64,000 nt of DNA. Origin: Candidatus Nitrosopumilus sp. Lineage in GTDB: Archaea > Thermoproteota > Nitrososphaeria > Nitrososphaerales > Nitrosopumilaceae. Below the pieces are notes generated by a model. It searched no databases and was not told the DNA's origin. It saw nothing but the letters and a program-made list of their open reading frames with translations. How positions within the stretch are numbered: the first letter of the stretch is position 1; every line of letters starts with the position of its first letter. A program made the position numbers and the translations under genes. The stretch is taken from the NCBI GenBank assembly GCA_013215285.1, contig JABSRD010000002.1, positions 1 to 64,000 of the forward strand, written 5' to 3'. Below are positions 44,404-55,910 of this stretch, piece after piece.

Positions 44404-44640
44404 ATGTTAGAGAAACCATTCAATCCAGATTTACTATACAACAGAGTTGTTCATTTCTATATTGACAAAAAGGGATTTTCTAAAGATAAGGCAAATTCAA
44501 TTGCTCAATCAGTTGTACAAAAAGAAGCTCAAAGAAGAATTTGTAAAAATGAAAAATGCAAACATTTCTCACATGATCATATTAGAAATGCCGAAACATG
44601 TCTAGTTGAAAATTGTCAATGCAATGAATTTACTAAATAA
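44404..44640 (+). CDS. Small Cys/His-rich thaumarchaeal protein
   Basis: 78 aa. An N-terminal helix (FNPDLLYNRVVHFYIDKKGF) leads to a Cys/His cluster: R-I-C-K-N-E-K-C-K-H-F-S-H-D-H, then E-T-C and N-C-Q-C. Five Cys and several His could bind one or two zinc ions. It is not a named zinc-finger class. It overlaps the 3' end of the convergent nuclease gene by 8 bp. Function unknown. Confidence 0.65.
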   Translation: MLEKPFNPDLLYNRVVHFYIDKKGFSKDKANSIAQSVVQKEAQRRICKNEKCKHFSHDHIRNAETCLVENCQCNEFTK

Positions 44641-45613
44641 AGTCATCTAAAGAATTTTTTACCAAAGGCTGTGCACTAATTCCTCTTTTCCTCAAATCTT
44701 CTGCAAATTCATCAACAAAACCATGTATAGTGTAAACTTGTTCAGCATCAGATTGCATTACCATATCTACTAATTCATTATAATCAGAATGATCACTCAT
44801 TGGAATAGAGTAATCAGTTCGTCGTCCAAAAGAGAATTTTTTTGATTGTGCCCAACCGCTAAATCCTATTGTTACTGCACCATACTTTGATTTCATATCT
44901 TGAACAAATTTATTTTTGCTAGACATTAAAGGGGCAATCATCACCCAAGGTTTTTTTTCTAGTAAAGCATTTTTTTCAGCTTCAGAATGTCCAATTCCAT
45001 CTTTTAGAGGAACACCTAATTTTTGGTGAAGTGAATTCATTTCTTTGACAGAGTCATGAAAGTAAAGAGGTCCCCAATGTCCAAAGAGTTGAGTAATAGT
45101 TTGAGCCTTACCAAGCTGATACCCCATCAAAATTACAGGTATTCCTTTACTGTAAAGCCCAGAAATTAATTCATTTACTTGTTTTTTAATTTCATCTATT
45201 TTAGGAAAAGTAAATTCGGGTAAACCAAATGTACATTCAGTAATCAGAGTTTTACATTTGGGAATTTTGGCACCATGAAGAAACCCTCTATCTCTTGTAC
45301 AAATATCGCCAGTATAGAAAATATCATCAAATAATAGCCCTTTTGCCCCAAGAATATGACCACTATCAATTAAAGAAAAATCATCAAGGGATTCAACATG
45401 ATTTTGCATTTTAAATCCTCGAAGATTAGCAATTTCATTTGTTTCAATTGAAGATAAGATGGTTCCACCATTTTTTGTTGGAAGGTGGTCAATGTGTGCA
45501 TGTGAGACAAAATTAATCCCTAAAGCGTCAGAATTTTTTGGATCCAAGTAAACACGTTTTTCATTAACCTCACACAGGATTCCATTTTTTGTCATCCTGA
45601 CTTTTCTAGACAA
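44633..45613 (-). CDS. Metallo-beta-lactamase-fold nuclease (mRNA 3'-end-processing/ligase-associated exonuclease type)
   Basis: 326 aa. The MBL core is V-S-H-A-H-I-D-H-L-P (H-x-H-x-D-H) near residues 36-45, followed by D-S-G-H-I-L-G-A and Y-T-G-D-I. The second half has the C-T-F-G-L-P and D-H-S-D-Y metal-site segments of the SNM1/Exo_lig/beta-CASP-related group. Archaeal relatives are annotated as mRNA 3'-end processing factors; DNA exonuclease activity is the alternative. The frame starts at TTG 45613, well placed from the TATA box; ATG 45595 is an alternative start. Confidence 0.8.
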   Translation of the reverse strand: MSRKVRMTKNGILCEVNEKRVYLDPKNSDALGINFVSHAHIDHLPTKNGGTILSSIETNEIANLRGFKMQNHVESLDDFSLIDSGHILGAKGLLFDDIFYTGDICTRDRGFLHGAKIPKCKTLITECTFGLPEFTFPKIDEIKKQVNELISGLYSKGIPVILMGYQLGKAQTITQLFGHWGPLYFHDSVKEMNSLHQKLGVPLKDGIGHSEAEKNALLEKKPWVMIAPLMSSKNKFVQDMKSKYGAVTIGFSGWAQSKKFSFGRRTDYSIPMSDHSDYNELVDMVMQSDAEQVYTIHGFVDEFAEDLRKRGISAQPLVKNSLDDFI

Positions 45614-45635
45614 TAAAAACAGGGGGATTAGATTT

Positions 45636-45645
45636 GATATAAATC
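45636..45645 (-). promoter_or_regulatory. TATA box of the MBL nuclease gene
   Basis: GATTTATATC on the minus strand is centred about 28 bp upstream of the TTG at 45613. Confidence 0.45.
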
Positions 45646-45765
45646 ACAAGTGTTATAGAAGTAAACCTCAGATCAAGTAATTTTTTTGTTATATCTATGA
45701 GGGTTTTTTGAGTGTCATATTAGTTTGAAAACTAGTAATCCTAAAAATCTTATTTAATTTAGAAA

Positions 45766-47907
45766 TTACAAGTCAAAAACAACGCTAGCAGTATTCCCAA
45801 CAGAGTCTTTAACGGTTACAGTATAAGTGCCAGGAATGTGTTTAGATTTTGCAGTCCACAGTAAATCAAATTCACCATTTTTTATAGTTGGAATATTTTT
45901 TTGAAAAACAATAGTCCCTTCCTCAGATTCAATTGTGATAAATACATCTTGTTTTTCAGTTGTAAATCCTTCAATAGTAACAAAGGTTCCAACAGATGAT
46001 GAAATAATTTCAGTTACACTAATACTAAGATCTTCTACTCCCAAAGAGACAACTTGAAATTCATAATTCTCTGAAATGGTACCGCTCTGAGATCTAATTA
46101 CCCAATTTCCAAAAGATGCATCAGAAGGAATAGTGAAAGTCTTTACAAACAAATTACCATTTTTATCTGCGAATGTCTCTTTTTGATTTATCAAAAATCC
46201 ATTAGAATCAATCAAGAACAAATCAACAAAGGTATGAGGTGCAGAAGTCCCCAGTACAGATATCAATTGAGTGGGGCTATACTTTTTTTCTAGAATATTC
46301 AAGTCAATAGGCATGGAATTAGAGGGTAAATCAACAGTAAACATATCAAAGTCCTGATAACCAGCCATGGAAACTAATACAGTATACACCCCTAGATAAA
46401 ATTCTGACAAGTTTAGATAGTAATTTCTTTTTCCATCAGGACCAAGTTCTACATTATCAGTAAATTTTTCATGGTCATTTTCATCAAGAATTGAAAGTGT
46501 GACATCTTGTGAAGGATCACCAGTAATTCCAATTAGGGCAACATCATTACTGAAATAATTTACATTGTTTAATGCAGTAGAAATAATTTTTTTTGGGTAT
46601 TGGCCCAAACCAACAAAGATAATTTCAGATTCACCTTCCTGAAATACATATAGAACATATGTTCCCTGTAAAGTTGAAGAGAAGGTAGAATATTCAACTT
46701 TAAAAAAACCAGAAGGAGCAACAACAAAATTTGTGGATAAAACTTCACTTCCTTTAGGATTAACAAGTTTTATGGTAATATTCTTGTCAGGGATAGCTGT
46801 TCCATTAAAGATCATTAAATCTTCAGGAAAAAATGTTAATTTTGTTGAAGAAACATGAATTTGTTTTGATAAAACCACATCCCAAGACTTGAGAATAGTA
46901 TTTTTTCCATCACTGATTTGGGTAGTGTACGTATCTATTGGAGTATCAAGTGGAACAATATTTGAAATAGACCAATCCCCCATAGAATCAGAGTTTGTTG
47001 TTTTAGTAGAAAAAAGATTCCCAAAAGAATCAGTTGTTTTTATTATTATCAAAGTGTCAGGGTTTACGGTTCCAGAAAATTCTATTTTTTCTGTTCTAAA
47101 AAATTTGTCTTGAATTTCAGAAACAGTTAGATCAATATTTTTAGAAACTTTTTTTTCAATATCAGTCAAGTTGATACGAATTATTTTTTCATTTTCTAAA
47201 ACATCTTTTAAAATCAAATTTATTTGTCCAATTTTTGTTTTTGTTGGAATTTTAGAAGTTGATATAAAATTTCCATCATCATCTGTTTCAAAAGATTGAA
47301 GTAGGCTAGTATCTAAAAATAATTTCAAAATAGAATTAGGTGCAAAATTATCACCAATAACACGAATTGTTGATCCTGGATGAATTGATTTTGGAGCGAC
47401 AGTAAAAACAGAATCAGATAGAATTCCAGTTGCATCTTCGACTAATTGGGGTTCATTTATGCCTAAAGATGATTCAAAGTTAGGCAAAGTTTGCCCAAGA
47501 TCTATAGAATTTCCATCATTGCCCAAAACATCCCATTGAAATAAAGGGTTTGATTTTTCTGAGATAATTCCAAACTTTACAATTTCATTTTGTTTTAATG
47601 GCTCCAAAGATGTAAAAATTATCACGTTTTGGGAATTTACAGTTGCAGTCCAACCATTTTCAGATTTAAAGGAGATAATATTATTATCAACAATCCAAAT
47701 TCTAATTGTTTTAATTTCTTTAACCCCAGAGTTGGTGAATTCAATTATAGATGTATTTTCAAATGAAAAACTTCTAGTGTTAATTTTTTCTTCATCAGCG
47801 AAAATATCATTTGGAACAAAATCAAGCATCATAAATGATGTAGACAATAAAATTAGAAGAATGAATACATGTGATGAATTATTAAATTTGTGAAAAATGA
47901 TATTCAA
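45766..47907 (-). CDS. Secreted multi-domain beta-sandwich protein
   Basis: 713 aa. An N-terminal signal sequence (hydrophobic core V-F-I-L-L-I-L-L-S-T-S-F near residues 14-25) is followed by tandem Ig-like/IPT-like domains. They include S-I-H-P-G-S-T-I-R-V-I-G-D-N-F-A-P-N and several I-x-G-T-x-x-P or V-L-G-T-S-A-P-H units. It ends at G-N-T-A-S-V-V-F-D-L without a transmembrane helix or sorting motif. Such proteins are likely cell-surface adhesins or envelope parts. The TTG start follows the stop of the giant surface gene after one base, so they are translationally linked. Confidence 0.8.
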   Translation of the reverse strand: MNIIFHKFNNSSHVFILLILLSTSFMMLDFVPNDIFADEEKINTRSFSFENTSIIEFTNSGVKEIKTIRIWIVDNNIISFKSENGWTATVNSQNVIIFTSLEPLKQNEIVKFGIISEKSNPLFQWDVLGNDGNSIDLGQTLPNFESSLGINEPQLVEDATGILSDSVFTVAPKSIHPGSTIRVIGDNFAPNSILKLFLDTSLLQSFETDDDGNFISTSKIPTKTKIGQINLILKDVLENEKIIRINLTDIEKKVSKNIDLTVSEIQDKFFRTEKIEFSGTVNPDTLIIIKTTDSFGNLFSTKTTNSDSMGDWSISNIVPLDTPIDTYTTQISDGKNTILKSWDVVLSKQIHVSSTKLTFFPEDLMIFNGTAIPDKNITIKLVNPKGSEVLSTNFVVAPSGFFKVEYSTFSSTLQGTYVLYVFQEGESEIIFVGLGQYPKKIISTALNNVNYFSNDVALIGITGDPSQDVTLSILDENDHEKFTDNVELGPDGKRNYYLNLSEFYLGVYTVLVSMAGYQDFDMFTVDLPSNSMPIDLNILEKKYSPTQLISVLGTSAPHTFVDLFLIDSNGFLINQKETFADKNGNLFVKTFTIPSDASFGNWVIRSQSGTISENYEFQVVSLGVEDLSISVTEIISSSVGTFVTIEGFTTEKQDVFITIESEEGTIVFQKNIPTIKNGEFDLLWTAKSKHIPGTYTVTVKDSVGNTASVVFDL

Positions 47908-47908
47908 T

Positions 47909-50900
47909 CTATTCTAAAAGTGCTTTTTCAAAGTTAACAGTTGCTTTTATAATTCCAATAAAGTGTCCATCATCATCATTAACAGATACAGACAGTTCAG
48001 CAGTATAAACTCCAGAATATCCTTCACTGTTAGAACCAGACATCACATAAACACCATCAGTTTTAGTATTACTCCACCATGATTCATCATTTTGCATATA
48101 GTCCTGAGTCTTTTCTGTAATTATCACATTTGCACCATATGCATTTGTGATTGCAATACTAGTTAATGGAACAAGATCATCTTTATGATGTTCAATTATT
48201 GCCTTTGCCATTAATGCAGAATCATTATCCATCAAGGTGGCCATAAATGGAGTTATAGTATTTGGATTTTGGCTCCATTTGATATCTCTTTGAGTAGTTA
48301 GTTCATATAGATTTTCAAAGGTTTCAAATTCATCATTGGAATTAATTAGTTCCTTTTGAATTTCTGCATTATTTGCCAATGATCTTAATGTTCTAATTTT
48401 ATCTTCCAAATCTCCAAGATTTGCTTGTCTGAAATAATCACTAGAATCATTAAATTTGAATTTTATATTATCAGATAATGAATCTGTATTTAGAGTAAAT
48501 TCTTCTAGTTCAGACTGTGGTTGGACATTAAATGAACTGGTCCTATCATTATTAGATAGTGCACCAGTACGTTTCAAGTATTGCAATGCGTTAACAAATT
48601 CTTCTTGGTTCACTTGATCATCTAATATCCATTTAACTAAATGTTTGACATATGGAGGAATCTGTTCACCTTTGATTCCAAATTTCGACAAGACATCTGC
48701 GTCAGATGCAGTTTCTACATCATAGCCACCCCACTGCTTTAGAACAGAAAGTTGTCCATCAGTCCATGTCTTAGTTTGAAGTTCAACTTCTGGAACTGGT
48801 TCTGAAATTCCCGGAACTGTTTCTGATGTTCCCGGAGTTGCTTCTGGTACGACAGACTCTGATTCAGGTTCTGTATCAGATATTCCTGATTCAGGGGTTA
48901 TGGATATAATATTACTTGATTGTTCAGAGATTGTAACCATTAATGCATCAGGTAAGAGGAATTGTACAGAGTTTCGTTTAATGTCCCATGCTCTGAATAA
49001 TACATCAGATTGTGGAATTTCATCTTTAAAGATCACTGTAAAGTCAAACACAGACTTATTTCCAGAAATTGAAGGAACTACATTAGCAGTTGCTATCAAA
49101 TTATGTGGATCTATTATTTCTAATCCTGACTGTTCATCATAAATTACAATAGTTTCAGTTAGGTCATTTAGAATTTGTGAACCATGTTGGTTTACATATA
49201 GTTCAACATGTTTCATATTTCCTGCACCTGAATTTTCATATACTGTTAGAGTTGTTTGTGACTCCTCTCCAGTTTTGATTTGTGCAGTATGAATAGTCTC
49301 AAATTGATAAGATTGGTAGTTTACTCCATCATACCTTAATGGGAATTCATTTTGGGTAAATCCAACACTGAATGATGGTGGAGTACTATCGCCGCTTCCG
49401 CCACCGCCACTAGAACCAGAACCACCAAATCCGGAGAAGTGTTTAGTCCAAATATCAGTATTTACAAAACATGCCTCTCCATCAAGTATAGCAGTGCCAG
49501 TTATTGTTCCAATGAAAGTATCTGCAGTTGCAGAATTAATAACAGTTACATCACAAGCTTGAATTTCTAAAGTAGCACCTGCGGCATTAATTGAGAATAC
49601 GGTTCCTGCCAATCCAGGAATTGTAATTTTAACAGGTACACTAAATGTTAAATCAACATCAGGATCACCGAATTCAACTACATCTACATTAGATAAATTT
49701 AGATCAGGGAAAGCCGTTGCAAACGCAGCATCTGGGACTTTTATAGAAACAGTAACTTCAATTGTTTCAGATGCACTAAATCCACTAACTTCAACTGATG
49801 GTGGGAATTCTATTGTTGCAGTACTACTTTCTACAGTAATTGTAGTTGCGGGGAATGTGGCAGTTCCAGCGCCACTATCGGTAAATGCTGAAACATCAAC
49901 TATCGGAGTTGTTCCTGCAGGTGCAACAATTGTTTCAATTAAAGTGTCATCAGTTAAAGCAATATCCACAGTACCATCACTATCGGTATCAGTAAGTGTG
50001 GCAGTTGTTATTTCAGTTGCATCAATAGTTGCTGCAATTACTTTAGTGCCAGAATTACCTAATAGATTTCCTGCAAGATCAGTTACAGTTGTTTCAATAT
50101 CAAAGGTAATTCCTGAATCAGTTCCACTAGATGATGCAGTTGCTGTAGACCAAATTACAGTGATGCTTGGAGTAGTAGAACCAACAAGTGAAGAACCAGT
50201 TTCAGTACTTTGAGCTCCAACTGTAATTGAAGTATATTCTCCAGCAGAAGTAATTACAGGTTCATTATAAGCAACAACTATTGATTTAGTACCAGATACA
50301 AATGCTTCAACAAATAGTGGTGCAGTGTTATCAACTGTAAAAGTAGCGCCAGAAGTTGGTGTAGAAACAACTAGATTTCCTGCAGCATCTTCAGCAGTTG
50401 CCATTGCAACAGTGGCAGTTCCATCACCTGTACCTACTGTATGAGCAAAAGTGTAAACTGTTGTAGATGATTTTACCATATTGGTCGTAGCAATGGTGTT
50501 TGCTCCAGAGATTGAGAGTTGTGGAACTGGTGAATCTGCTACGGCTTCATTAAAAGTTGCAGTAATTGTTACAGGTGCACCTGACTTGTATGGTCCTGCT
50601 GTAGAATATGTGATTGCAACAGTTGGAGCAGTAAAGTCAAAGGTTACTCCACCAGAATCAAGTGTAATATCAGGTGAACCAGATCCTGCATTTCCTGCAA
50701 GGTCTGCAAATGTTACAGATACTGCTGCAGTACTAGCATCAACTACATCAGCTTCTGCTGTAGTGTATGTGGCACTCCAGGATGTAGCACTACCAAGGTC
50801 AGTTGGGCCAACATCAGGTGCTTCACCAGCTATAGTAATAGTTGGGGTTGTAATTGCTTCATTGGTTGTAAATGTCAAAGTTAGAACATCGCCTTCAGCA

Positions 50901-51940
50901 GATAGTGTTGCATCAGAACCTCCAGATACTAAATCAAGATTAGTGATTGCAGTTGGTGCAATACCATCAGTGGCAGTTACTGTAGCACTTACCAATGGTA
51001 TAGTATCATTATCTTGAATATTGCCTGCAGTGTATATTACGTCAGGGGTCTGATCTGCAACGGATGGGTGAGTAAAGATGATTGAAGTATCATCAGCTAG
51101 TGTACCACCACCAGTTGCACCAGAGATATTTGCAGTTGCAGCAGTTGCCGTTTGGCCAGCAAATGTCCACTGAGATAATGTCAAAGTACCATCAACTGGT
51201 TTACTAAATGTTACAGTTGTTTGAGTATTAAAATTAGATACTGCAGTGTATGTCGGAGCACCTAGAGTATTAACTACGGATTCACCACTAAAGTCCAGCA
51301 AAACGTTTCCTGATGTCTCTGAGAAGGATCCTGTTGCTCTAGTGTAAGAGATAGTTATAGTGTCAGTGTCAGTAACTGTTGCACCTGTAATTCCAAGTGT
51401 GATAGTAGTACCAGAAGTGGATACAATTGAACCAATTGAACCGCTAGCTACTCCTCCAAGTGTAAAGTCACCAATTGCTGCTGAATTATCAGATACAGAT
51501 GTGTCTACAGTGATTTCAATTTGTGTATCGGAAATAGTTGTTGCACTGCTAAATGCTGGACGAGTAGAATCAATTCCAGGTGCAGTTCCAGCAACTATGC
51601 TTGTAATTTCAGTACCGATATTGCTTGAACTGTCTTGAAGTGTAATACTAACAGTTAGTGCATTTGCATCCAAGACATCACCATCACCTACACCTACAGT
51701 ATCAGTAATGGTATATTCACCACCAGAAGTTTCAGCAAAGACTGCAGTTTGTCCGTTAATTGATTGAGTACCAGATGCTGTTAATCCTGTTTCAGCACCG
51801 CCAGCAGTTACAGTAACTACGATTGGATCACCAATTGCTGCAGTGTTACCTGATGTTGGAGATACAGAAGTTACAGTGAATGTTGGAGCTGTAGTGTCAA
51901 GTGTGTTTGATACTGCTTGTGGAGTGACAAAGTCTGCCAA
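47909..51940 (-). CDS. Fragment 4 of the giant surface protein, C-terminal part
   Basis: 1343 aa by first ATG; the frame is open upstream to the TGA at 52091. It holds several ~100-aa repeats (T-A-P-T-F-T-V and L-T-L-T-F-T-T-N-E-A type units), a Gly/Ser hinge (GFGGSGSSGGGGSG), a conserved domain of ~200 residues, a Pro/Glu-rich linker and a helical segment. That segment (I-P-P-Y-V-K-H-L-V-K-W-I) resembles C-terminal modules of thaumarchaeal surface proteins. It has no terminal membrane anchor. Confidence 0.75.
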   Translation of the reverse strand: MADFVTPQAVSNTLDTTAPTFTVTSVSPTSGNTAAIGDPIVVTVTAGGAETGLTASGTQSINGQTAVFAETSGGEYTITDTVGVGDGDVLDANALTVSITLQDSSSNIGTEITSIVAGTAPGIDSTRPAFSSATTISDTQIEITVDTSVSDNSAAIGDFTLGGVASGSIGSIVSTSGTTITLGITGATVTDTDTITISYTRATGSFSETSGNVLLDFSGESVVNTLGAPTYTAVSNFNTQTTVTFSKPVDGTLTLSQWTFAGQTATAATANISGATGGGTLADDTSIIFTHPSVADQTPDVIYTAGNIQDNDTIPLVSATVTATDGIAPTAITNLDLVSGGSDATLSAEGDVLTLTFTTNEAITTPTITIAGEAPDVGPTDLGSATSWSATYTTAEADVVDASTAAVSVTFADLAGNAGSGSPDITLDSGGVTFDFTAPTVAITYSTAGPYKSGAPVTITATFNEAVADSPVPQLSISGANTIATTNMVKSSTTVYTFAHTVGTGDGTATVAMATAEDAAGNLVVSTPTSGATFTVDNTAPLFVEAFVSGTKSIVVAYNEPVITSAGEYTSITVGAQSTETGSSLVGSTTPSITVIWSTATASSSGTDSGITFDIETTVTDLAGNLLGNSGTKVIAATIDATEITTATLTDTDSDGTVDIALTDDTLIETIVAPAGTTPIVDVSAFTDSGAGTATFPATTITVESSTATIEFPPSVEVSGFSASETIEVTVSIKVPDAAFATAFPDLNLSNVDVVEFGDPDVDLTFSVPVKITIPGLAGTVFSINAAGATLEIQACDVTVINSATADTFIGTITGTAILDGEACFVNTDIWTKHFSGFGGSGSSGGGGSGDSTPPSFSVGFTQNEFPLRYDGVNYQSYQFETIHTAQIKTGEESQTTLTVYENSGAGNMKHVELYVNQHGSQILNDLTETIVIYDEQSGLEIIDPHNLIATANVVPSISGNKSVFDFTVIFKDEIPQSDVLFRAWDIKRNSVQFLLPDALMVTISEQSSNIISITPESGISDTEPESESVVPEATPGTSETVPGISEPVPEVELQTKTWTDGQLSVLKQWGGYDVETASDADVLSKFGIKGEQIPPYVKHLVKWILDDQVNQEEFVNALQYLKRTGALSNNDRTSSFNVQPQSELEEFTLNTDSLSDNIKFKFNDSSDYFRQANLGDLEDKIRTLRSLANNAEIQKELINSNDEFETFENLYELTTQRDIKWSQNPNTITPFMATLMDNDSALMAKAIIEHHKDDLVPLTSIAITNAYGANVIITEKTQDYMQNDESWWSNTKTDGVYVMSGSNSEGYSGVYTAELSVSVNDDDGHFIGIIKATVNFEKALLE

Positions 51941-52090
51941 AAAGTTGCCTACTGCATCATCAATGGAACCACCTGCTCTAGTATAATCAATAGTTACAAC
52001 ATCATCATCAGCAATTGTTGCAGTGATGACGTTAAGTGTGATTGTAGTGCCAGAGACAGATGCAATTGAACCAATTGTAGCACCAGATAC

Positions 52091-53743
52091 TCATCCTAGG
52101 GTAAAGTCATTAAAGTCTGCAGAGTTATTAGATACAATTTCACTTGTAGTAATTGCAATTTGGGTAGTGGAGACAGTTGTTGCACTGACAAATATTGGAT
52201 CTCCGGGTAATGTCTGAGTTAGAGCATCTACAAACTCTGTACCTTGATCAAATATATCAAATAAATTACCAGTTACAGGTATAGTATAGGTAATAGCAGG
52301 AAGATTATCACTTGTTACACCAGTGACAGTTAATTCCATAGTATCCATACCACCAGGATCAGATACTGCAGTTACAGTACCTTCATCTAGTGTCCAGTTA
52401 GCATCATCATTATCTTGACCAGAAACAGTTTCACTCCAAGTTACCTCAATCAGACCATCAGTAAGTTTTATGGCAGATATCATAACAGGTGCTACATCAT
52501 CTAATGCTACACCACTCTCATCATCTGGCACAGCATTTGGGGTATTGGTGGTTTCTAGATCCTCTAAAGCACCATTTGCTAAAACATAAGCAACATTAGG
52601 AGTTTCATCGGTCCCAGTAAGTCCAGAAATGGTTAGAGACACAAAATTATCAATACCTGCAGGATCAGATACAGCAGTTACAGTACCTGCACTTAATGTC
52701 CACTGATCAATAGACGTATCAGCAAGACCATCAATATCTTCACTGAAAATAACATCAATGTTAGTAGTAGATGTTCTGATAACTTCAACGACTACAGGAA
52801 TTGCAGTTACAGCTTGATTAGTAAAGTTATCTACATCATTTCCTGCAGCATCCTGAAAAGTTGCGCCACCACTGTTTGACATAGTTATTAAAACTCCAGA
52901 TTCTGTTGCAGATTCAGTTTCATTTACTACTACATCAACAAAGAAAAGTGTTCCACCAGGATCAGACACAGTTTGTGCAGTACCACCACTGGCACCACTA
53001 AAACTGTAATCACCAGCAGCTTGTGATGTGCCATCAATGAATTCACTAAAGTAAATTCTGTAAACTGATTGACCACCACCATCATTAGAATCAATCAGGG
53101 CAGCACGTACTACAACAGCTGGTGCCTCATCAACTGCAGTTGCACTGAGGGTTCCAGCAGCTGCTTCATTAGCAGTCACATCAGATATAGCACCAACAAT
53201 ATCTACGAAAGGAGTCTCATCAGTGTCAAATGTATCTGCAGAGAAATTAAGATCAACACTATCATTATCGGCGTTGTTTGCATCATCATTAATGAAAGTA
53301 ACAGACGTTGGTACATTCCCATCTACAAGAAAATCAGCAGCTATAATCGTAGCAGTATCAACATCATCAGCATCAAAGCGCACATTAACAGTAGCATCAT
53401 CAAGCAAAGCTGCCCCATTAAGTGCTGGAGCAGTACTGTCAAGAGTAAATGTGCTGCCAGATGTTTGATCAGCAATACCACTACCAGCTGTTTGTCCATC
53501 ATCAGTAAATGTAGATAGAATTGTAATATCAGGAGAAACAGGTGTTATAGAGTTGAGTTCTGCCTCATCAGTGTCAGATAGTGTGACAGTTAAGATATTC
53601 AAACCTGTGCCAGAACGTGCAACAGCAGAACCAGCATCAATTGTTACAGTAGTACTTGGAGGAGCAGCTTCAATTACAATTTCATTAAGTGCAACAACAT
53701 TACTGCCAGGAACAGTTACAGGTTCATCATAAGTTAAAACCAA
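52091..53743 (-). CDS. Fragment 3 of the giant surface protein
   Basis: 550 aa by first ATG; the true frame begins upstream at A-N-I-A-Q-T near 53845. Repeats include L-V-L-T-Y-D-E-P-V and T-A-P-A-L-N-G. It ends at a TGA after D-F-N-D-F-T-L-G and is in the same frame as fragment 4, so this break is a single codon change rather than an indel. Confidence 0.7.
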   Translation of the reverse strand: MVLTYDEPVTVPGSNVVALNEIVIEAAPPSTTVTIDAGSAVARSGTGLNILTVTLSDTDEAELNSITPVSPDITILSTFTDDGQTAGSGIADQTSGSTFTLDSTAPALNGAALLDDATVNVRFDADDVDTATIIAADFLVDGNVPTSVTFINDDANNADNDSVDLNFSADTFDTDETPFVDIVGAISDVTANEAAAGTLSATAVDEAPAVVVRAALIDSNDGGGQSVYRIYFSEFIDGTSQAAGDYSFSGASGGTAQTVSDPGGTLFFVDVVVNETESATESGVLITMSNSGGATFQDAAGNDVDNFTNQAVTAIPVVVEVIRTSTTNIDVIFSEDIDGLADTSIDQWTLSAGTVTAVSDPAGIDNFVSLTISGLTGTDETPNVAYVLANGALEDLETTNTPNAVPDDESGVALDDVAPVMISAIKLTDGLIEVTWSETVSGQDNDDANWTLDEGTVTAVSDPGGMDTMELTVTGVTSDNLPAITYTIPVTGNLFDIFDQGTEFVDALTQTLPGDPIFVSATTVSTTQIAITTSEIVSNNSADFNDFTLG

Positions 53744-53760
53744 AATTCCAGCATCAACAT

Positions 53761-54312
53761 CTACAACCCAAGTAGATAGTACAGGTTCAGCAGCGTCAGT
53801 AGATCCAGAAGCTGCAGAACCAGCAGTTTGTGCAATATTTGCACATTAACATTACCATTACTAAATGGTGCAAGGGATGCATCCTCAATTACAACGTCAA
53901 TTAGAGTAGGATTATTTGAGATTGCTTTAAGACCAAGTTCGTCAGTTGCACTCATTGCATATACTACAGATGTTGTACCTGCATCACCAGTAGAACCTAC
54001 ACTGCCAGTTTCATCTAGTTGATAATCATCATCATGTGCAGATGCATCCTCAAAGATGAAATCACCCAAGTTAACTGCAGTGATTGTATCCATTGGTTCA
54101 TTAAAGTTGAAAGTTACAGTATTTGCAGAATAATCGATTGCTACAGTAAATGTTGGGGCAGAGGCATCCCTAGCATAAGTTGCACCAGTAGTTTGAGTAG
54201 AAACTGATGGACCAGTTTGACCATCAGTAGTAAAAGTAGCTGCAAGAGTAATGTCAGGAGTGGCAAGAGTCTCACTGTTTAATTCTACCCAGTCAGCTCC
54301 AGAAAGATCCAC
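53761..54312 (-). CDS. Fragment 2 of the giant surface protein
   Basis: 183 aa by first ATG. The real frame extends upstream from G-D-T-V-T-R-S-G (near 54355). It contains A-T-F-T-T-D-G-Q-T-G, homologous to a segment of fragment 3, and loses frame at N-V-N-V near 53845; the last ~25 residues are a Leu-rich artefact. Confidence 0.65.
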   Translation of the reverse strand: MDLSGADWVELNSETLATPDITLAATFTTDGQTGPSVSTQTTGATYARDASAPTFTVAIDYSANTVTFNFNEPMDTITAVNLGDFIFEDASAHDDDYQLDETGSVGSTGDAGTTSVVYAMSATDELGLKAISNNPTLIDVVIEDASLAPFSNGNVNVQILHKLLVLQLLDLLTLLNLYYLLGL

Positions 54313-54314
54313 AG

Positions 54315-54980
54315 TTAAGATTTCAAGATCGTCACCACTTCGTGTAACTGTGTCACCAGATCAAGAGTTACAGTAGTAGCATCAGGATGAATAATAATAT
54401 CACTTGCACTAAGGGTGCTAGGATCAGTTACAGGTTCATCAAATGTTAAAATCAAAGTTTCTGCTGCAAAGTCAACTACCCAAGTTGAAAGTGTTGGAGC
54501 AGTAGTCTCAAAGTCAGGGCCAGCATCAGTTCCAGTTTCATTGTCAGCATTTGGAATAGGTGAACCAGTATTATCTTCAATAAAGCCTGCAGGATATTCA
54601 ATGGTGGCACTTGCACTGAAAGTTCCATCCCAGGTTGTCATACATGCGAGTCTATCAGTTGCATCTAATGTTATAGTAATAGTTTCTGTTTGACTAGCTA
54701 ATGCCCCATCATTGGTGACAAGACTGCCAGTGCCCAATGTACAAATCAAACTGCTATCATCAAAAACTTGAACTTGATCAGCATTTGCATTATGTGCTGA
54801 AATAGTAGAACCACCACCGGCATCCCACAATGTTTCAAATGTACCATCAAAGCCTTGAACAATATCAATAGTAGTAGTTCCAGCTGTAGGTGCAGCTGCA
54901 AATGCATCCTGCATTGGAACTACAGATACAACACCAAGTATCAGAATTATCGACAATAATGAAAGATTAAATCGATTCAA
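54315..54980 (-). CDS. Fragment 1 of the giant surface protein: signal peptide and first repeats
   Basis: 221 aa from a TTG start. A clear signal peptide (residues 1-29, ending D-A-F-A-A) is followed by beta domains with L-I-L-T-F-D-E-P-V, a motif repeated in fragment 3. Out-of-frame reading begins after V-T-L-D, giving a nonsense tail. Confidence 0.7.
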   Translation of the reverse strand: MNRFNLSLLSIILILGVVSVVPMQDAFAAAPTAGTTTIDIVQGFDGTFETLWDAGGGSTISAHNANADQVQVFDDSSLICTLGTGSLVTNDGALASQTETITITLDATDRLACMTTWDGTFSASATIEYPAGFIEDNTGSPIPNADNETGTDAGPDFETTAPTLSTWVVDFAAETLILTFDEPVTDPSTLSASDIIIHPDATTVTLDLVTQLHEVVTILKS

Positions 54981-55268
54981 GAAGAATTACTCCAATTTAC
55001 AATATAATTACCATTAACTGTAAGTGCCCGTACCCATGTTCTAGTCGTAAAATTCACCGAATGGCGTCTATTAAAGATAGTGCATACTTTAAGCAAATTG
55101 TAACATTAAGAAAGTAGACTCAAAACTCAAGGTTTGACTAGAACACAAATGAGAGTTGAATCAATTAATCATATCAAAAATTACACATAGCCTCAAATGT
55201 CAAAAAAAACAGAGTCAATCTACAAAAATTAGAATTTTCCAAACTTAGACATATAGAGTTAGAATTAA
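54981..55268. other. Divergent intergenic region between the surface gene and purN
   Basis: The 288 bp hold no gene I can support. They contain the surface-gene TATA element (55001-55010), a locally less AT-rich patch around 55025-55065 and further AT-rich spacer before the TTG of purN. Confidence 0.6.
55001..55010 (-). promoter_or_regulatory. TATA box of the giant surface gene
   Basis: TAATTATATT on the minus strand is centred 25 bp upstream of the TTG at 54980, supporting that start and a leaderless transcript. Confidence 0.45.
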
Positions 55269-55910
55269 TTGCAGGCTGAAATTACTAATCAACAATTGCT
55301 AAATCTAGGAATTTTAATCTCAGGTCGTGGTAGTAACATGGAATCCATTTTAAAATCAATTAAGAAAAAAAAGATTCCAATTAATGCTGCAGTAATAATT
55401 TCAAACAAACCTGATGCAAAGGGTCTAAAAATTGCAGAAAAACTTGGAGTAAGTATCGAGGTAATTGAGAGTAAAGGATTCAAGAACAGATGGGAATATG
55501 ACAAAAAAATAATTTCTACTTTGATAAAATATGGGGTAACTCCAAAAAATGGTCTCGTATGTCTTGCAGGATTTATGAGAATTATCAGTCCAGAATTTGT
55601 AAAAAAATACAAAAACAGAATCATCAATATTCATCCAGCTTTACTTCCATCATTTCCAGGACTTGATTCTCAAAAACAAGCACTAGATTATGGTGCAAAG
55701 TATTCAGGATGTACAGTACATTTTGTAGATGCAGGAATGGATACAGGTCCAGTAATAATTCAAGCAATAGTCAAAGTCAAAGAAAATGACACTGTAGAAA
55801 CACTGTCAAAAAGAATTCTAAAAGAGGAGCATAAGATTTATCCTGAAGCAGTGAATCTTTTTGCAAGAAAAAAGATCAAAGTCGTAGGACGAAGAACAAT
55901 TATCAGCTAA
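55269..55910 (+). CDS. purN: Phosphoribosylglycinamide formyltransferase (GART, PurN type)
   Basis: 213 aa. It transfers the formyl group of 10-formyl-tetrahydrofolate to GAR in purine synthesis. Visible are L-G-I-L-I-S-G-R-G-S-N-M near residues 13-24, the catalytic Asn-His region I-I-N-I-H-P-A-L-L-P-S-F-P-G near 117-130, and V-D-A-G-M-D-T-G-P-V-I with the essential Asp. The start is TTG. It converges with the cupin gene with a 4-bp overlap. Its donor is likely supplied by the nearby folD product. Confidence 0.95.
   Translation: MQAEITNQQLLNLGILISGRGSNMESILKSIKKKKIPINAAVIISNKPDAKGLKIAEKLGVSIEVIESKGFKNRWEYDKKIISTLIKYGVTPKNGLVCLAGFMRIISPEFVKKYKNRIINIHPALLPSFPGLDSQKQALDYGAKYSGCTVHFVDAGMDTGPVIIQAIVKVKENDTVETLSKRILKEEHKIYPEAVNLFARKKIKVVGRRTIIS

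Follow-up and report, generated by a model that had tools for sequence, protein, structure and literature searches.

Four abutting open frames on the minus strand of a contig from Candidatus Nitrosopumilus, a marine ammonia-oxidizing archaeon, raise the question of whether they encode four proteins, one protein assembled by recoding, a surface antigen that is switched off, an intact gene disrupted by faulty assembly, or a single gene that the organism has lost. The frames fill 7072 nt (positions 54980–47909) of the window, the 64,000-nt stretch of contig JABSRD010000002.1 analyzed here. We consider it likely that this large gene once specified an accessory surface protein and recently became a pseudogene through two frame breaks and a stop codon. 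Its parts, and the partner gene beside it, are as follows:

54980–54315, minus strand: first piece (p1), 221 aa from a TTG start, with the secretion signal MNRFNLSLLSIILILGVVSVVPMQDAFA and the first repeats
54355–54362, minus strand: first frame break, 1 nt short relative to a paralogous repeat
54360–53761, minus strand: second piece (p2), 199 open codons, the last ~20 of which lie outside the real frame
53843–53850 (about), minus strand: second frame break, in an inter-domain stretch
53845–52094, minus strand: third piece (p3), 584 codons, with repeats of about 100 aa
52093–52091, minus strand: TGA, in frame within a repeat; the paralogous copy reads a sense codon here
52090–47912, with its stop at 47911–47909, minus strand: fourth piece (p4), 1393 codons, with more repeats and a conserved C-terminal module
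45766–47907, minus strand: partner gene, intact, 713 aa, a secreted Ig/MG2-type protein

The four-frame structure, its coordinates and its arithmetic had been put forward in the original prediction, and a recheck of the frames confirmed all three. The length of 7072 nt equals 1 modulo 3, for which the minimal reading is two 1-nt losses; restoring them yields a single gene of ~2357 codons with one TGA still in its frame (the earlier total of 2358 codons counts the final stop codon too). The earlier proposal that all junctions can be located from homologous repeats holds for the first break and for the TGA, whereas the second break falls between domains and its position derives from the frame switch only. 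At the first joint, residues 162–207 of p1 align to residues 21–70 of p3 (E 4e-10) and residues 1–104 of p2 align to residues 71–175 of p3 (E 2e-16), such that the two target segments abut exactly. Likewise, the end of p3 and the start of p4, which flank the TGA, align to one and the same repeat internal to p4 (E 1e-10 and 4e-12). GC content at codon positions 1/2/3 carries the same signature in all pieces (0.51/0.48/0.20 in p1, 0.56/0.43/0.24 in p2, 0.57/0.47/0.15 in p3 and 0.49/0.49/0.16 in p4). Because repeats align across these two joints, because codon-position GC is equal in all pieces, and because a signal peptide is found only on p1 while the proteins of relatives, which share the C-terminus, are each encoded by one open frame, we treat p1–p4 as one gene, the three signals being taken as independent. 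Annotation pipelines would list four unrelated proteins across the same interval.

The signals that join the pieces also bear on the possibility that the region yields four separate functional proteins: each piece does have a possible TTG or GTG start, but the earliest starts available to p2, p3 and p4 fall inside the very repeats that align across the joints, and with secretion confined to p1 and one protein encoded in relatives we regard this as very improbable. Programmed recoding, in which two frameshifts and TGA read-through would produce the full-length protein, could draw on downstream frames that stay open for hundreds of codons; yet the X XXY YYZ slippery heptamer is absent at both breaks, the orthologues (L065 and L029) are single open frames, and three recoding events in one message are, to our knowledge, unprecedented, all of which makes it extremely unlikely. 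Reversible on/off switching of a surface antigen has the appeal that the protein is large and variable, its ectodomain having been replaced between sister species with leader and C-terminus kept. The phase-variation-like inactivation entertained in the original prediction nevertheless finds no simple repeat or homopolymer at any lesion (the first break lacks one, as do the others), no inverted repeats and no further copies of the gene's DNA in the genome that could act as donors, and switching back would require all three independent lesions to revert at once; we give it hardly any credence.

The main rival to a pseudogene is that the gene is intact in the organism and that all three lesions are sequencing or assembly artefacts of the draft, an explanation that we judge unlikely. 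The source assembly is indeed a draft of 23 contigs, and large repeat-containing genes are classic trouble spots. The earlier suggestion that long repeats make misassembly plausible is, however, refuted by k-mer and repeat analysis of the large gene, which finds no exact direct repeat of at least 18 nt (the longest being 17 nt), no exact repeat above 12 nt spanning any of the three lesions, and no tandem repeats at the lesion sites, leaving short-read repeat collapse without a substrate; nor does the gene hold any A/T run of six or more or any G/C run of five or more. As a yardstick for frameshifts, the open reading frames (ORFs) of two complete relatives (G007 and G013) were aligned to the 132.9-kb contig, on which 100 conserved ORF alignments, together 66.7 kb, ran their full length without interruption or frameshift. 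Had this sequence broken at the rate of the large gene (twice in 7072 nt), it should show ~19 breaks, which rules out assembly-wide indel errors; even so, the 95% upper limit that these 66.7 kb set on the frameshift error rate (~4.5e-5 per nt) would still admit ~0.3 errors in a 7-kb gene. Three lesions in one gene against none in 66.7 kb of conserved coding sequence could still mean a local problem, but at DNA level the large gene occurs once in the genome (elsewhere it matches only 177 nt within the partner gene), assembly errors do not usually take the form of nonsense substitutions, and the same cassette decays independently in a sister species. Given the lack of a repeat or homopolymer substrate and the absence of frameshifts from the rest of the contig, the three lesions are probably real in the organism.

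The gene's relatives and neighbors allow the breaks to be placed in time and in genomic context. The cassette formed by the large gene and its partner sits between two conserved neighbors, and its surroundings in the window comprise:

44633–45613, minus strand: left flank, a ligase-associated exonuclease family gene (Xnuc), conserved neighbor
45643–45656, plus strand: left-end copy of the hotspot core, degenerate
54981–55290, minus strand: leader/promoter region upstream of the large gene, also conserved in the sister species (local score 188 against a shuffled maximum of 36)
55267–55275, plus strand: right-end hotspot core, AATTGCAGG
55296–55910, plus strand: right flank, purN (likely start 55296), conserved neighbor

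Nitrosopumilus sp. HM_N (locus L065, genome G065) has the same order of Xnuc, partner, large gene and PurN. There, the large gene is open and encodes 870 aa, with a C-terminal module 60–63% identical to that of the broken copy and a repeat ectodomain that is unrelated to it; the flanks and leader are the same, ~300 bp upstream of the gene being conserved between the two orthologues. In that species, it is the partner gene (L065:1790–3892, minus strand) rather than the large gene that carries a premature in-frame TGA, at codon 596. The cassette is hence decaying in both lineages, through a different gene in each. A groundwater metagenome genome (L029) supplies a third version, open and 1471 aa long, and serves as outgroup for the C-terminal module, in which we count 47 lineage-specific amino-acid changes in the broken copy against 56 in the intact one. 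The module comparison also displays a third-position excess (dN 0.25, dS 0.58). Because the module is not evolving faster than in the intact copy, the inactivation appears recent relative to the species split, in a test whose scope is the C-terminal module, the ectodomain (p1, p3) having essentially no relatives. Searches of 95 genus genomes turned up essentially no homologue of the N-terminal pieces, and the p3 repeats have one weak match in the genus and are otherwise without relatives there. A profile scan of genome contigs returned six named loci (an earlier scan with a 1392-aa piece gave no match), and a scan of viral contigs gave no matches. One surface cassette is thus represented in an undamaged state and with damage to either of its genes, which makes surface-protein turnover comparable between species.

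Among the three options offered in the original prediction, a recent pseudogene is the best supported, given the intact orthologue at the same locus, a contig elsewhere free of frameshifts and the lack of relaxed evolution in the module. The pseudogene reading builds directly on the broken frames, the single gene across the joints, the intact orthologue between the same flanks and the hotspot. We propose that the original product would have been a secreted protein of ~2357 residues, running from a signal peptide through an array of ~100-residue repeats (the variable ectodomain) to the conserved C-terminal module, and that in this lineage two small losses that broke the frame, together with one nonsense mutation, recently inactivated it. 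Only a short secreted stub of ~220 codons would now be translated, without export of the conserved C-terminal module. The two-gene surface-protein cassette itself would be accessory cargo in a chromosomal integration hotspot of Nitrosopumilus, and its loss looks like ordinary decay of such cargo. Microbes commonly lose large accessory surface proteins through decay, so the break alone is of little consequence; the useful context is a defined integration site, in a genus of global importance, with empty and differently filled versions across 76 genomes.

In 67 of the 76 genomes with Xnuc and PurN on one contig, the gap between the two genes is about 60 bp. The other nine hold 1.1 to 26.9 kb of different DNA (9.7 kb in the source genome, 5.2 in G065, 3.8 in G013, 3.5 in G016, 2.5 in G052, 2.4 in G051, 1.1 in G082, 14.6 in G045 and 26.9 in G018). 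The empty site in relatives is clear, and its single core, AATTGCAGGTTTGATC, is duplicated at the ends of filled sites in several genomes, as a 12-bp exact direct repeat in G045, G013 and G052, as 9 bp in G065, and with a degenerate left copy in the source genome. The 14.6-kb insert of G045, bounded by the 12-bp repeats, carries two tyrosine-recombinase genes, one of them beside the right end. In several genomes, relatives of that enzyme also sit on the opposite side of Xnuc, no more than about 300 bp away, and Xnuc is thus flanked by integration activity on both sides. We infer that the cassette arrived by site-specific integration. No integrase lies between 45614 and 55295, for which reason we class the cassette as hotspot cargo rather than a whole element. 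Thaumarchaeal elements that integrate between genes and carry S-layer proteins of the Ig type are already documented (PMC6563490). Like those cryptic integrated elements, the locus has its cargo between two genes, at a site where tyrosine-recombinase elements insert; unlike them, it has no integrase between its ends, and its left end repeat is degenerate. A more ambitious scheme, in which the Xnuc–PurN junction would be a genus-wide docking site swapping surface and secreted-protein cassettes mobilized in trans by tyrosine recombinases, with ectodomains exchanged wholesale, leader and C-terminal sensor module kept, and inactivation of either gene a recurrent, selected shedding of surface structure, strikes us as decidedly doubtful.

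Several further observations concern the hotspot. Integrases akin to the G045 enzyme, ~280 bp downstream of Xnuc, lie at G052:C5:3857–4903, G078:C43:3359–4393, G096:C17:27305–27547 and G076:C57:1025–1306, some of them decayed. The 26.9-kb insert of G018, which carries housekeeping genes, may have arisen by rearrangement instead of being an element. The hotspot was traced at 45614–55295 in the window and at L065, L085, L086, L093, L115, L116, L118 and L119.

What the large protein did may be approached through its C-terminal module, some match to which occurs in 77 of the 95 genus genomes and in which three parts can be distinguished:

48923–49435, minus strand: conserved beta-sandwich domain, with an Ig-like fold predicted at moderate confidence
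48566–48760, minus strand: helical W/K motif, QLSVLKQWGGY...IPPYVKHLVKWIL...EFVNALQYLKRTG, common to thaumarchaeal surface proteins
47924–48415, minus strand: Cache-like sensor domain, with homology to the extracellular dCache domain found in histidine kinases of Nitrosopumilus

An AlphaFold model of the C-terminal 463 aa is of low confidence overall (pLDDT 52), with the beta domain reaching about 75–84, and Foldseek matches to immunoglobulin folds support the predicted fold only. The Cache-like domain (47924–48415 in the window; L008, L044 and L046) also ends giant surface proteins, recurs in small secreted proteins that bear an IPxWIK motif, and forms the sensor of membrane histidine kinases. 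In three relatives of the module (L029, L067 and L069), hexapeptide-type repeats (GTVIExGVTIESGV...) stand between the beta domain and the helical motif and probably form a left-handed beta-helix stalk.

An open frame of 2781 aa with the same conserved module lies at 402–411 kb of G043, which we take to be N. maritimus SCM1, a position compatible with the Nmar_0455–0459 region. Large adhesion proteins of ammonia-oxidizing archaea (AOA), 1000–3000 aa long, are irregularly distributed, are induced in biofilms of N. maritimus (Nmar_0455–0459) and have a presumed location in the S-layer (PMC12448741). The large protein resembles them in being secreted, in falling within 1000–3000 aa, in lying beside other surface proteins and in its patchy occurrence, and by this analogy of size, secretion, neighbors and distribution it would belong among them; it differs in being broken, in its Cache-like C-terminal domain and in its locus. 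Judging from its architecture and from the same analogy, it most likely would have mediated attachment or cell–cell contact.

The description of the gene as encoding a major envelope protein is not supported: the surface cassette is present at the Xnuc–PurN locus in 2 of the 76 genomes, and a sequence search of a PDB library (which may not include the N. maritimus S-layer protein NmSLP) found no relative of the large protein. Nor is an identity as the AOA major S-layer protein supported, the large protein not being genus-wide, as its cassette count and its N-terminal pieces attest. With NmSLP (Nmar_1547; PMC11153153) it shares a secreted multi-domain array, probably Ig-like, and differs from it in being accessory rather than universal. 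The partner gene, in turn, was tried as an S-layer anchor of the SlaB type. Nitrososphaerota SlaB has a C-terminal transmembrane segment (PMC11153153), whereas the partner protein, which ends in ...GNTASVVFDL, has no such anchor and scores 35 bits against the SlaB NCBIfam model, whose curated cut-off is 700 bits; the assignment failed. A Pfam Dioxygenase_N match was below cut-off and was discarded.

Very long open frames of 7310 codons (G052:C35, ~218 kb), 7210 codons (G051:C37, ~23 kb) and 9668 codons (G043:C1, ~948 kb) match the conserved beta domain. On the source contig, in-frame stops elsewhere are confined to accessory or secreted genes: four in-frame-stop matches were checked, three of which look like real accessory-gene stops and one of which (107527) is a probable shadow frame, and the remaining stop-containing alignments begin upstream of the real start or duplicate the same loci. 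The three in-frame TAA codons, at contig positions 80904, 127947 and 132294 (L071:16904, L074:9947 and L074:14294), interrupt otherwise open genes for a secreted coiled protein, a plastocyanin-like secreted protein and a short secreted protein, and suggest that the genome holds more pseudogenes of exported proteins.
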